A DNA stretch of 64,000 nucleotides from Fragilariopsis cylindrus CCMP1102. Lineage: Eukaryota; Bacillariophyta; Bacillariophyceae; Bacillariales; Bacillariaceae. Of the stretch, positions 37,964 to 43,896 are shown piece after piece (position 1 is the stretch's first letter; each line of letters opens with the position of its first letter). Where the stretch lies: positions 186,001 to 250,000 of the forward strand of contig FMBT01000299.1 of the NCBI GenBank assembly GCA_900095095.1. The letters are read 5' to 3'. The notes beneath the pieces are model-generated. The model saw nothing but the letters and a program-made list of their open reading frames with translations, searched no databases and was not told the origin of the DNA. A program made the translations under genes and the position numbers.

Positions 37964-38986
37964 ATGGCGTCAAACAAGGGACTAATACTATATGTGTTGG
38001 CTGCATTTCTTGTAGTCGGCACAGCCAATGCCTCTGGGGCCGCTGAGATCACTCAAGAAAACCATGCTTCTCTCACAAAAGGGAAGAATTCTTTTATTAA
38101 GTTTGTAAGAATAATGAATTTGAAATCGTAAATGAAAATGCATGTCGCAGGATTTTTATGTGAAAAACAGGCACGAATGTGCAGTACCTGTATCCAACAG
38201 AAAGTATGCGTATCAAGTTTAACATTGTATTAGTATCTCACGATATCTTTTTCCCTTGCTCTCAATTTTTGTAATAGTTGGCTCCTTGGTAAGTTTAAGA
38301 TCATATTATAAATTTCCAACTCAAAAACGCAAATAATATACTTGCTAACATTTTTTTCTTCTTTCTTCACGCTGCTATCGATCAAAAGGTGAGGTCACTG
38401 TAAATCCATGAAACCAGCATGGGACCAATTAGGAGATGAATTTGCAGGTTCATCATCCGTCGTTATCGGTGATGCCGACTGTACCGCTTCTGGTGAAGAA
38501 ATATGTCAAACGTTCGGTATCAAAGGGTGTAAGTATTGTTATCAACAAAAGCCTTCCACTTTCCACTATTCACACAGACAAAATTGTGATTCCCTCCTAT
38601 TCTCTGTTATTTTTACTGCTACAATGAGCATAAATTAAAAAATTGAAACTAATGTTTGCTATCTATGACTTGTATATTATTTAGACCCAACAATTAAATA
38701 CTTTCTTGACGGCGACTCTGAAGGCACGGATTATCAAGGTGGTAGAGATTATGACAGTTTGAAAGCATTTGTCGAGGATACATTGGAGGTCAAATGTTCG
38801 GTCACTGACCAAGAACTATGTACAGACAAAGAGAAGGCGTACATTGAAAAGATGAAGACAAAACCCTCCGAAGATCGAGTTAAACAAATTACACGTCTTG
38901 AGAAGATGGCAGGAGATAGTATGAAGGCTGAACTCAAAATTTGGCTTCGTCAAAGACTACAAATTCTTCGTATGCTAGAGTTGTAG
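37964..38986 (+). CDS. PDI-like thioredoxin-fold protein; TGA at first active-site Cys (candidate selenoprotein)
   Basis: ER-type thioredoxin protein of about 197 residues in four exons: 37964-38104, an 11-nt exon 38278-38288, 38389-38528 and 38685-38986. The N-terminus is a signal peptide (LYVLAAFLVVGTANAS). The joined reading is ...NSFIKF-LAPW-TGA-GHCKSMKPAWDQLGDEF, then FGIKG-YPTIKYFLDG with the cis-Pro. The catalytic motif should be CGHC. The first Cys codon is TGA at 38390-38392, and the frame is otherwise open on both sides. This position is where selenocysteine replaces Cys in algal PDI-family selenoproteins. After the Trx domain (about residue 130) comes a charged helical tail with no second Trx domain and no KDEL-type end. 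A SECIS element would be required in the 3' UTR; I found no convincing one by eye. Alternative: a one-base error (TGT or TGC to TGA). Confidence 0.8.
38390..38392 (+). other. In-frame TGA at catalytic Cys-1 (possible selenocysteine codon)
   Basis: Codon order W (split by an intron, 38287-38288 plus 38389), TGA, GGT, CAC, TGT gives W-U-G-H-C. The frame upstream (LAPW) and downstream (KSMKPAW) is the conserved PDI active-site context. Confidence 0.7.
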
Positions 38987-39616
38987 AAACATTGGGTGAT
39001 AATGATAGTATACGAATGTTTATTCCTAGAAATATATGTGTGTGGTCGTGAAAGAAAGTATGGGACCGTTGATTGCCGTAAACCTATTATGGGCTGCAAC
39101 CAAATAGTAGAGGGGATATGAGAGAATGACGACAACGTAAACATGCGTGAGGCAATAGTTTTTCCGTTGACCGAAATATCATATCCTAACGCAAACAGGC
39201 AGTGACATGCTGGAAATCCTGACTACCACATATTTGATAGTAAAAAATGATTGTATATAAAAGTTATTTCAAACAAACAAACAAAAAAGGAAAGCAGTAC
39301 AGTCTTTCATGTAGTAGCGTTTTTTCTTCCTATTCCATTTTTCGATCATTTTGTATCCAGCGTTATTGCTGATGGGATCCAACGGATAAGTTAGTCCTAT
39401 TTGATACCCATAAAAATAGTGTAAATTGCCCCCTTTTTAAAAACCAAGCATTATCTCCCCCGAAAGACAATCCATCACAAATCACAACCGCATAAACTTG
39501 ACTTTCTTTAGATTCTTTTTGAAAACAGCCCATCACAACTTGTACAGGTGTATCATAGAACATAGAACAGAGCCATAAACATACCGATCGGCATGAGATA
39601 GATGGGATAAAGTGTG
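38987..39616. other. 3' UTR of PDI-like gene and upstream region of helicase
   Basis: 630 bases without a gene. This is where a SECIS hairpin should lie. Two weak candidates start with purine-TGA and have AA in a loop: about 39002-39052, whose helix is mostly G-U pairs, and about 39202-39238, with a 6-bp helix carrying one bulge and AAA in the loop. Neither meets the usual 10-13 bp helix, so I do not call them. Confidence 0.4.
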
Positions 39617-42600
39617 ATGACCGAATCAAAGAATTATATACCGAATCATGCAGATAGGCGGCGTTTCCAATTCTCCTTGACCAGGACTACCGTCATCGCT
39701 ATTATCTGTTCAAGTATATTCGTACTGACACATCGGGTCTACTCTTTTCCGGTATTTCTTGCATCGGATCATCAGCGCTCTAGGACAAGGGAAGATAATA
39801 CTATCAATTCCAAGGTCGACGCCAAAGGAAGGAATGCAGAATATTCAGATGAAATTGAAGAGGCCATGAGTTAGGCCGGTCTGAGCTTGGGAAGTACTAT
39901 GATTTCCCCCTCGATGATTGGCAATTGCAAGCAGGAGGTGATATTTTAAATGGACACAATGTGATCGTATGCGCACCCACGGGTTCAGGTAAAACCGTAG
40001 TAGGTGAAATGGCACTTCATACTGCCTTTGATCGTGATCTTGATGGGATATATACGACTCCACTAAAAGCTCTTTCGAACCAAAAATATACGGACTTTCG
40101 CCAATTATTTGGAAGGGACAATGTTGGTTTATCTACCGGGGATGTTTCTATCAACAGAGAAAAGGCTAGACTCACTGTAATGACAACTGAAGTCTATAGA
40201 AATATCGCTTGGCGATCAAGCGCACAATCCAGTGAAATCGACTCTTAAACAGCCAAGATGAAGAGAATATGGTATCTAAGAATAACAGTGGCAATAATCT
40301 TCGAAAGAATGCCATGGTGGTCTTGGACGAATTCCATTACATGGGGCAACCTGGAAGGGGCGGAGTTTGGGAAGAGTGCGTAATCACTTCACCTGCTCAT
40401 ACCCAAATCATAGGTCTCTCAGCCACCCTACCAACGCTTTGGAATTAGCAAAATGGATGGAAAGCGTCACAGGAAGGTCCACCATATTAATAGAAGCACC
40501 AGGTGCACGCCCAGTTCCTCTCAAATATCTATTTGCCACACGGGAAGGTTTATTTCCTTTATTTCGAAATGAAGATGCAGGTCCTGGCTCGCCATTGGGA
40601 CTTCTTGGATATAGAGGTGATGGCGTTCCTGAAACGATAGGAAAACCAAAAGTAAAAAAGAATAATGATTTTCTGGATGAAGAGGAAAACGACTATTTGA
40701 AAGTCAAGAATCTTCCTAAAGGACTTCTAGTCAACCCAATTTTAAATAGTCTTGCACAACGAAGGGTGCAGAAAGTCAATAAAATGCTCGAGAGACAAAA
40801 ATCTAGAAACGACAACTTTGATAGATCGGATTGGTCCCAAGGTAACGGGAGAGGTCGTGGCCGTCGATCTACTTCTAGTAGTTTCCAAACGACGTCTAGA
40901 GTAGCCAGGAAAGAACGAGAACGCCTAACGAGGAGGGAAATGAGAAAAGCAGTCCCGTCGTTAATGATTCTTTTGACGCGATTGAAAGAAAAGAATCTTT
41001 TGCCGGCAATTTTCTTCATTTTTTCTAGGAAAGGTTGCGATGAAACAGCTGAAAATTTATGCAATGGCTTCAAGGGACCGCTAAACCCAAACATTGATCT
41101 TGAAAACGACGAAAATCTCCAGAAGTCGTATATAAAAAATGATAATACGAGAAAACGAAAAAAGCGAGATATAAAGAAAAGCGGAAGATCGTCCAGCAAC
41201 AAAAAAGGCAACAGTAACAATTTACTAGAAGATGAACAAGGAAGGTCGTTCAGGTTGAGTAGTAACAATGTAGACGAGAGCGTCTTCAACTCGGTTTAGA
41301 TACAAATGGAATATTTACAGAAAGTGACTTTGTTATTTCTGGGTCTCCGGTCTCCTCTGATAATTGGAAGTTCTTTAGCTCGGCTGGTCTTTTAAACTAC
41401 GACGAAGTCCAACAAGTGGCGGGAAGAGTAGCTCAATTCAATGACGAAAATCCCGAGATCGCATTCACTGATGATGTCGTTGAGCAGCTTATGTTTGGAC
41501 TTGGCCGTCATCATGCAGGAATGCTTCCTGCACACAAAATGCTCATCGAGAATCTTTTTCGCAATAACCTAATGAAAGCTGTCTTTGCGACCGAGGTAAG
41601 TTTCTGATTTATTTTGATCCATTTTCATTTGCAATATATTAATTATGTCCAGCTAATTGATCTGTGATACATTTCGTTATCCTGTTATGTTAAAGACATT
41701 AAGTGCTGGAATCAATATGCCTGCAAGAACAACCGTTATTTGCTCCTTAGCCAAGAGAGGCGATAGCGGTATGGTTCTACTTGAAACGTCGAATTTACTT
41801 CAAATGGCAGGTCGAGCGGGTCGAAGAGGATTTGATGAAAAAGGTAGTGCGAAAAATTGCAACCGAACGGATTGCCATCGCATACTGTTCCGAAGAACAC
41901 TGATTGGTCAAGGTCACACATGTACTGACAACAACACTGTTTTTTTTCTTTAATTCGCCACTACACTACAATATAGGCACGTGCGTTTTAGTAGCCACTC
42001 CGTTTGAAGGTGAGGACATTGCTGCAACGTTATGACGAACCCTGTCAAACCAATAACATCACAATTTCGTCCGTCTTACGCCCTAACTGTAAACCTCATT
42101 GCAAGAGGAAACGGGAGCTTGTCCATAGCGAAACAACTCGTAAGCAAGAGTTTTGCTAATTGGGGAAGGCAACAAATGGAGGAATCACGGAGTGGTTCAT
42201 CTAACAACAACGACGTCACAGATGTCTTAATTAATATCTCAGAAGAAAATTTTATACATCCTTAATCCGTGTGTTTGACCAGACGATCGAAAACAGAAGC
42301 GCTGAATTTGATATTGCGTTCTTAAGCTTCTTGTCGGTGATGTTAAAGGATCGGGAGCTTCTCAAGAAATCTTCGAAAAGCTTCGAAGCTGCAAAGCTGG
42401 CTTTTGAACTGGAATCGACAACTTTAGGTTGCCTCGAACTAGAATTGAAAGATCCCAATGAATATGAAGTGGACGAAATTCTTGACATAGAAAACTTTAA
42501 AGAAGAAGCTAAAGACGACGATGACGAGATCCTTGAACAAGTGAATGAACAACGAGATCGGGTCAAGGCAGCAGAGAAAAAATTGAATATGCACCCTTTT

Positions 42601-43896
42601 GTATCAATAGTAGATCTTTCAAACAAGATTCTTACCAGCGAATGTTCCAACGGTAAAGAATTACTAAACGCCCTTCATTGTATACAGAGTATGGATGATA
42701 AATCAAGTGTTGATGCTGAAGATGTAGCTCAATTTGTCAAGTCGAGCATTGTGGTGAAAAATAAGTTGAAAAAACTTGCCAAATCCAATCCCAATATGGA
42801 CAAGGAGACGATGCTTTCTGATACACAAAAAGCAATCATAGAAGTTGAAGATTCTGCTTGGAAAGATATGCTGGCAATAACTAGAGTATTGATTGCGTAT
42901 GGTTGCATCGTTCCTCAGTCAGGGGGAAAGGAAGAATACTCCGATGAAGAACTCGAGAAAGAAATATTTGATGTTACTCCAGCAGGTAATGATGTTGGTA
43001 TGTTAAGTTTTGAGAATTCTTTATGGTGTTTTACTGCTGTGGGTGGCACATTCGATATTACCAATGCATCAGCCAGATTTGATGAACTAAAACAAGCTAT
43101 GGACATCTTCGATGATGACGACGATATGGATGTCTTCGCCGACAACAACGATGATCTTGCTAAAGACAACGAAGTCGATACTGTCGACGACATTCCGTCT
43201 AAGGCACGACAAGAGGCAGAAACTCTTATATATCACCTTCAGGAATTATCACCAGGTGAAATGGCTGGTTATGTCAGTTGTCTCGTAACAGGTGATTCGG
43301 GAAGAAGCAACGGAGTCTCTTCTATTGAAGTTTTCAAACGACTTGGACCTCGATTGCAACGATCCATTCAAATGCTCCTCGATGGGACAGAACGATTCCA
43401 AGATGTTCAAAGGCAGTTCTTTGTGGACGAAAGAACATGTAATTGCCAATTTGATTTATCGCATTCTGAGGTAATAACAGCATGGGCGAATGGTTGTACT
43501 TGGAGCGAAGCTCTGGAAATATCTGGAGCTGCGCCTGGTGACTTGACCCGAATCATTGGACGTGCAACAGATGCAGTTCGGCAACTCGGGGCGCTTAAAT
43601 TTGCTCCAGTCCGAAAGAACGATATGTTGGAACAAAGTTCAGCCTTAGGCATAATTGACCCATTATCCCGTGGGATTCATCCGGAAGTTCGTCGTCTTTG
43701 CCGTGAAGCAGCTAGGGAGATGAATCGATACCCAGTCAAAGATCCGCTTCCATTCGAGGTTAGTGCAGATGATGCAGATGAAATATTCGATTTGGAAGAA
43801 GATGACGACAGCGATGACGACAGCAACATCGAGACTGAAACTGACGTCGACATCGAGACTGAGAATGAGGAGCTAGAAACTTCTTCTTTAATGTAA
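39617..43896 (+). CDS. Plastid-type SKI2-family DEVH RNA helicase (ISE2-like) with DSHCT domain, interrupted by single-base shifts
   Basis: About 1,330 residues once frames are joined. The N-terminus is basic then hydrophobic (TVIAIICSSIFVLTHRVYSFP), like a diatom plastid pre-sequence with Phe after cleavage. Helicase motifs: Q-like F.LDDWQLQA, motif I APTGSGKT (about 39977), TTPLKALSNQK, motif II LDEFHYM (about 40325), SATLPNALELA, RHHAGMLPAHK (about 41510), ATETLSAGINMPARTTV across the intron about 41596-41694, and QMAGRAGRRG (about 41805). A second intron starts at about 41843. An arginine-rich insertion lies at about 40840-40940. The C-terminal DSHCT domain is intact (about 43240-43620), followed by an Asp/Glu-rich tail. 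Frame steps occur at about 39873, 40246, 40434, 41280, 42030 and 42262. Each is cured by one added base. A pseudogene is possible but less likely, since no other lesions are seen. Confidence 0.85.

Follow-up and report, generated by a model that had tools for sequence, protein, structure and literature searches.

An in-frame TGA at the first catalytic position of a PDI-like gene in Fragilariopsis cylindrus as a predicted selenocysteine codon

A gene for a PDI-like protein in Fragilariopsis cylindrus CCMP1102 carries a TGA triplet exactly where the first catalytic cysteine of the active site would be expected, which raises the question of whether this codon is read as selenocysteine (Sec), acts as a true stop or is an error of the assembly. 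The gene lies in a stretch of 64,000 nucleotides of contig FMBT01000299.1 (G000:C306:186001-250000), hereafter called the window, and was analysed in the context of the whole genome (67.9 Mb, 818 contigs). The most likely answer, to which we assign a probability of roughly 0.9, is that the gene encodes a PDI-like selenoprotein of the secretory pathway with a single thioredoxin domain, whose UGA codon 52 would be decoded as Sec. The TGA very probably encodes selenocysteine because the genome makes Sec and possesses further enzymes of this kind with the same change.

The gene extends from position 37964 to 38986 on the forward strand of the window and consists of four exons, which together code for a product of 197 residues. 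Exon 1 (37964..38104) contains the start codon, a hydrophobic N-terminal segment, which by eye alone resembles a signal peptide, and the start of the thioredoxin domain up to FIKF. It is followed by a microexon of 11 nt (exon 2, 38278..38288), which is odd for its size and contributes LAP and the bases TG of the Trp51 codon. Exon 3 (38389..38528) supplies the remaining G of Trp51, the TGA, GHCK and the remainder of the domain half that bears the active site, and exon 4 (38685..38986) encodes the cis-Pro half (GYPTIKYF) and the C-terminal tail and ends with a TAG terminator at 38984-38986. The introns have lengths of 173, 100 and 156 nt, start with the donors GTAAGA, GTAAGT and GTAAGT, respectively, and all end in AG. 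The initial annotation had proposed that GT-AG splicing leads to LAPW-TGA-GHCK and that a PDI-like site thus reads W-TGA-G-H-C; both claims are borne out, as the three GTAAG donors and their AG acceptors yield one open frame of 197 codons, in which the TGA at 38390-38392 stands where the first catalytic Cys would be expected (W-TGA-G-H-C-K). It had further been stated correctly that the only stop in an otherwise open thioredoxin domain falls on this codon, which is codon 52, that the second Cys is intact (38399-38401) and that an in-frame ATG is located downstream at 38408. In a Cys-containing paralogue at C164:182404, the active site reads APW (TG|G)-TGC-GGA-CAC-TGT-AAA, with TGC in place of the TGA and an intron at the identical base of the Trp codon; the boundary of exon 3 is therefore a family feature, and the splice reading is sound at this point. 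The only other acceptor listed just past the TGA, at 38394, was rejected, since it yields W-S-L-stop when a subset of the splice combinations is followed by hand.

The encoded protein matches the Pfam thioredoxin profile PF00085 in one stretch at residues 30-128 (E=7.1e-21) and hence contains a single thioredoxin domain. Among solved structures, TXNDC5 and PDI are its best relatives, and the alignment to both identifies a CGHC-type a-domain with a cis-Pro loop, in which the predicted Sec stands for the first Cys. A KDEL-like ER retention signal is absent from the C-terminus, which reads RMLEL (38970-38986), and the paralogues end in GSDEL (the C164 gene with TGA described below and C150) or SNDEL (the C164 Cys gene). 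Since the window protein has no DEL-type end such as its relatives possess, it may escape retention in the ER. In the alignment, the two C164 proteins exceed it in tail length by about 33 to 48 residues.

A TGA can only be read as Sec in a host that possesses the required machinery. The initial annotation had called for a genome search for tRNA-Sec and EFsec and had named a genome without Sec machinery as an argument against its reading; tRNA-Sec, SepSecS, EFsec and SelD are all present. The covariance model for tRNA-Sec produced 15 matches on five contigs, 13 of which exceed the Rfam cut-off, and ARAGORN predicted 11 genes in four of these loci, all with the anticodon TCA, where the covariance model finds 12. 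Four contigs carry tRNA-Sec genes in clusters of three (L010, L011, L012 and L015), and a single one lies at C678:161886; some of these contigs look like paired haplotypes, and 13 matches over the cut-off seem many for one genome. SepSecS is encoded on C651 (E=7.4e-64). EFsec is found on C108, where two pieces of one open frame exceed the cut-off of PF21208, an accession confirmed by the profile search as that of EFsec. The bacterial EFsec model TIGR00475 gave 44 genome matches, none of which passes its cut-off and the fourth of which is the true EFsec on C108; the other matches that were opened were judged by eye to be IF2, LepA, mitochondrial EF-Tu, eIF2-gamma and other GTPases.

SelD is present on C53 and C220 (L056/L057; E=7.0e-54), and in both copies the frame just upstream of the long open frame reads DLKG-TGA-ACK, with the TGA at the position where animal SPS2 has Sec. 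A SECIS-like hairpin was also observed downstream of these SelD (SPS2) genes. Five of nine genome matches to glutathione peroxidase (GPx) contain an in-frame TGA, which in three of them (L021, L022 and L023) is located at the Sec site (ASQ-TGA-G). The remaining two, L027 (C90:233906) and L028 (C597:12388), share a divergent GPx-like exon with the sequence VACL-TGA-GKTRVSYTELG; judged by this sequence, their TGA probably occupies the GPx Sec site and would belong to a further selenoprotein. Among three Rdx matches, one contains an in-frame TGA, and this gene, SelT (L029), carries it at the Sec site (CVS-TGA-G). TGA also serves as a terminator in this genome, as it ends seven of the 19 stop-to-stop frames of at least 250 residues in the window, which are frames unverified as genes.

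Further PDI-like genes with a TGA at the aligned position were found when the genome was scanned with GTGNGGNCAYTGYAAR, an active-site pattern that allows any third base in the catalytic codon. The pattern matches ten sites, all of which fall within thioredoxin or PDI profile matches; eight encode Cys, none Trp, and two carry TGA, namely the window gene and a gene at C164:180841 on the minus strand. A backwards control pattern matched once in the genome. As near-copies occur on the paired contigs C63/C86, C150/C282 and C376/C424/C792, the number of genes behind the eight Cys sites is about four. The second TGA gene, on C164, reads FIKFQAPW-TGA-GHCK, continues through a full domain and ends in GSDEL. 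It shares 43% identity with the window protein (168 columns) and 63% with the C150 Cys paralogue (195 columns), and thus the two TGA codons are not copies of the same error. This gene (180266-180939, minus strand) and the Cys PDI on the same contig (182402-182746, plus strand) lie on opposite strands with their active sites 1.5 kb apart, and an apparent frameshift is seen in the signal-peptide region of the former. In a gene tree of eight PDI rows, no branch was resolved; the window protein is nearest to the C164 TGA protein (50%, 106 columns), with C150 almost tied by path length, and we therefore make no claim of a separate origin for the two one-Sec genes. Thioredoxin matches with TGA on C226 and C293 were discarded, as the codon is at the edge of the match and not at a Cys, and in another on C574 stops precede an intact CKTC site. 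No relative was confirmed on viral contigs.

A third gene with TGA at this position differs in its motif. The PDI-like gene at C333:42149 (L078, minus strand) lies in a weak match (C333:41769-42170), in which a splice acceptor is followed by GGA-TGA-GGG-TGA-TGA-CGA-AAA, corresponding to G-U-G-U-U-R-K; its GUGUU motif thus comprises three TGA codons, all in frame. When positions are counted back manually from the PAW common to both genes, the first of these TGA codons corresponds to codon 52 of the window gene; the latter lacks GUGUU and has a single TGA, in W-U-G-H-C. The C333 protein has a C-terminal tail that, following an apparent break, continues in a different frame and ends in EDEL; this tail shares 54% identity with the window protein over 28 residues (168-195 of the latter). 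It is absent from the four other paralogue loci compared, where C-terminal matches are mainly to the preceding stretch; of the paralogues examined here, only the GUGUU gene has this tail in common with the window protein. In the thioredoxin domain, the window protein is 47% identical to C150 (123 residues), but only 28% to C333 (136 residues).

Decoding of UGA as Sec would further depend on a SECIS element, which the initial annotation had suggested searching for at 38987-39620, downstream of the gene. A candidate hairpin is located there at about 39113..39187 on the forward strand, with a long lower helix including nine uninterrupted base pairs, ATGAC, an apical AAA and CGAA. The published SECISearch pattern is NTGA-(10-13)-AA-(15-39)-GA with energy thresholds of -12.6 and -3.7 (PMC2375036). 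The candidate fits this pattern with spacings of 10 and 31 and, in our own folding, energies of -16.2 and -4.8. Its score was reached by 17 of 400 dinucleotide shuffles of the 634-nt region and by 13 of 154 matches over both strands of the window, its lower-helix score by none of the 400 shuffles, and its fold (z-score -1.95) was equalled in stability by 6 of 200 shuffles. The 3' core of a SECIS usually ends in U; that of the candidate ends in A, as do those of the SPS2 and C164 candidates.

The Rfam model SECIS_1 found no element in the window at its gathering score, none in the 3' region of the window gene at E values up to 10 and none genome-wide at E values up to 1. It also detected nothing in the control loci L021, L022, L023, L024, L029 and L009 or in the SPS2 candidate, and its silence therefore says little. 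Several home-made scanners were applied as well. The first reported weak matches in several loci, the candidate not being among them, and the second flagged it together with further matches in L021, L022 and L029. A strict scanner built on the published pattern returned one match downstream of the PDI gene, found nothing in six control stretches and gave six matches on both strands of the 64 kb, among which the candidate has the longest lower helix. With a loosened scanner, the SelT element ranked first in L029 and the candidate first for the window gene, with one to three matches in each other locus. The last scanner at default limits gave one match each in GPx L021, SelT L029, SPS2 L056/L057 and the C164 Sec-PDI and none in GPx L022, GPx L023 or the 3' region of the window gene, where the candidate was recovered once two limits were loosened; as its background is about 0.9 matches per kb (117 in 128 kb), scanner matches in control genes prove little. 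Since limits were altered while results were in view, all SECIS calls are rated moderate. Of the expectation of a SECIS in this region, the part that stands is a hairpin that fits the published pattern; it was weakened by the number of shuffles that score as well and by the silence of SECIS_1. On balance, the hairpin is somewhat more likely than not to be the real SECIS element.

How do other explanations of the TGA compare with decoding as Sec? If the true codon were TGT or TGC, misread in sequencing or assembly, the gene would encode an ordinary Cys PDI. The assembly does have errors, as illustrated by the apparent frameshift in the C164 paralogue and by frame switches in an adjacent gene, and the locus is present once, with no allelic copy found in a DNA search. 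The adjacent gene, at 39859-43894, is helicase-like (DSHCT domain, with homology tested in its last part only) and has five frame switches, four of which are of the one-base-missing type, introns not being excluded; they are probably assembly indels. This fits the earlier claim that most other errors in this DNA are deletions, whereas a change of TGT or TGC to TGA would be a substitution; no frame break of the helicase type occurs in the PDI gene. TGG, the other possible third-base error, is found at none of the ten GTGNGGNCAYTGYAAR sites, and GPx, SelT and SelD of the same host carry TGA at the Sec site. TGA also occupies the aligned codon in two further genes, located on different contigs (C164 and C333), which makes a base-calling error in the window unlikely, and we consider this explanation quite improbable. 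It is less probable still that the TGA is a true stop that inactivated a former Cys PDI, now a decaying pseudogene: the moderate SECIS support and a C-terminus without the DEL-type end of other family members would agree with decay, but the 197 codons contain no further stop or frameshift, the splice signals are intact, the domain score is strong and a random stop would strike codon 52 only about once in 197. Translation from the in-frame ATG at 38408 into a truncated protein without the active site is the least credible of the three, as it would sacrifice half the fold along with the N-terminal segment, both of which are kept in frame by exon 1.

With decoding as Sec as the preferred reading, a mechanism can be proposed. 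A SECIS located in the 3' UTR would act with a SECIS-binding protein as well as with EFsec and tRNA-Sec to decode the UGA at codon 52. In the resulting U-G-H-C redox site, the more nucleophilic selenium would attack substrate disulfides, and the second Cys would resolve the mixed selenide-sulfide. This Sec-Cys pair would likely act on disulfides in the secretory pathway.

The window protein shares its fold, the APW-x-GHCK site and the cis-Pro region GYPTIKYF with ordinary PDI a-domains such as those of TXNDC5 and PDIA1; however, these have Cys where the window gene has TGA, and their solved full-length chains are multi-domain. The initial annotation had pointed to Sec-containing PDI-family proteins in marine algae, and such proteins are indeed known (PMC6254913, PMC2375036, PMC7539508). 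Two PDI selenoproteins have been described in Thalassiosira pseudonana (PMC2375036), and PDI_a is named as one of the Sec proteins that occur most widely in algae (PMC7539508); the T. pseudonana pair and algal PDI_a to PDI_d are, like the window protein, PDI homologues with one Sec. EhSEP2 of Emiliania huxleyi, described as the most abundant of the 75Se-labelled selenoproteins of this alga, has one thioredoxin domain with Sec in the first position of its PDI site, -UGHC- (PMC6254913). The window protein, also algal, resembles it in its single thioredoxin domain and predicted UGHC site; EhSEP2 was found by 75Se labelling, whereas the window selenoprotein is predicted. Single-domain UGHC PDI selenoproteins have thus already been described, and the window gene is very probably a further real selenoprotein gene among them. 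Gene finders tend to cut such genes at the Sec codon, with loss of the N-terminal segment and the active site, and algal oxidative-folding enzymes can therefore be missed.

GUGUU is the published three-Sec motif of PDI_e, and in the literature searched it came up in PMC7539508 only. The C333 gene has exactly this motif, with its first TGA at the position of codon 52 in the window gene, and its protein has a tail in common with the window protein, whereas the window gene has one TGA in a UGHC site and a domain closer to the UGHC and CGHC paralogues. It is a tentative and rather doubtful suggestion that the window gene is a single-Sec relative of PDI_e, which would combine the UGHC site of EhSEP2-like proteins with the tail of the GUGUU protein. 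If so, one genome would hold a series of small PDIs with CGHC, UGHC (two genes) and GUGUU sites, and this series would reveal the type of gene from which the Sec-Sec motif arose, with its steps comparable in one host. Small PDIs with Cys, one Sec and three Sec in a single genome would offer a natural comparison of what selenium contributes to disulfide exchange.
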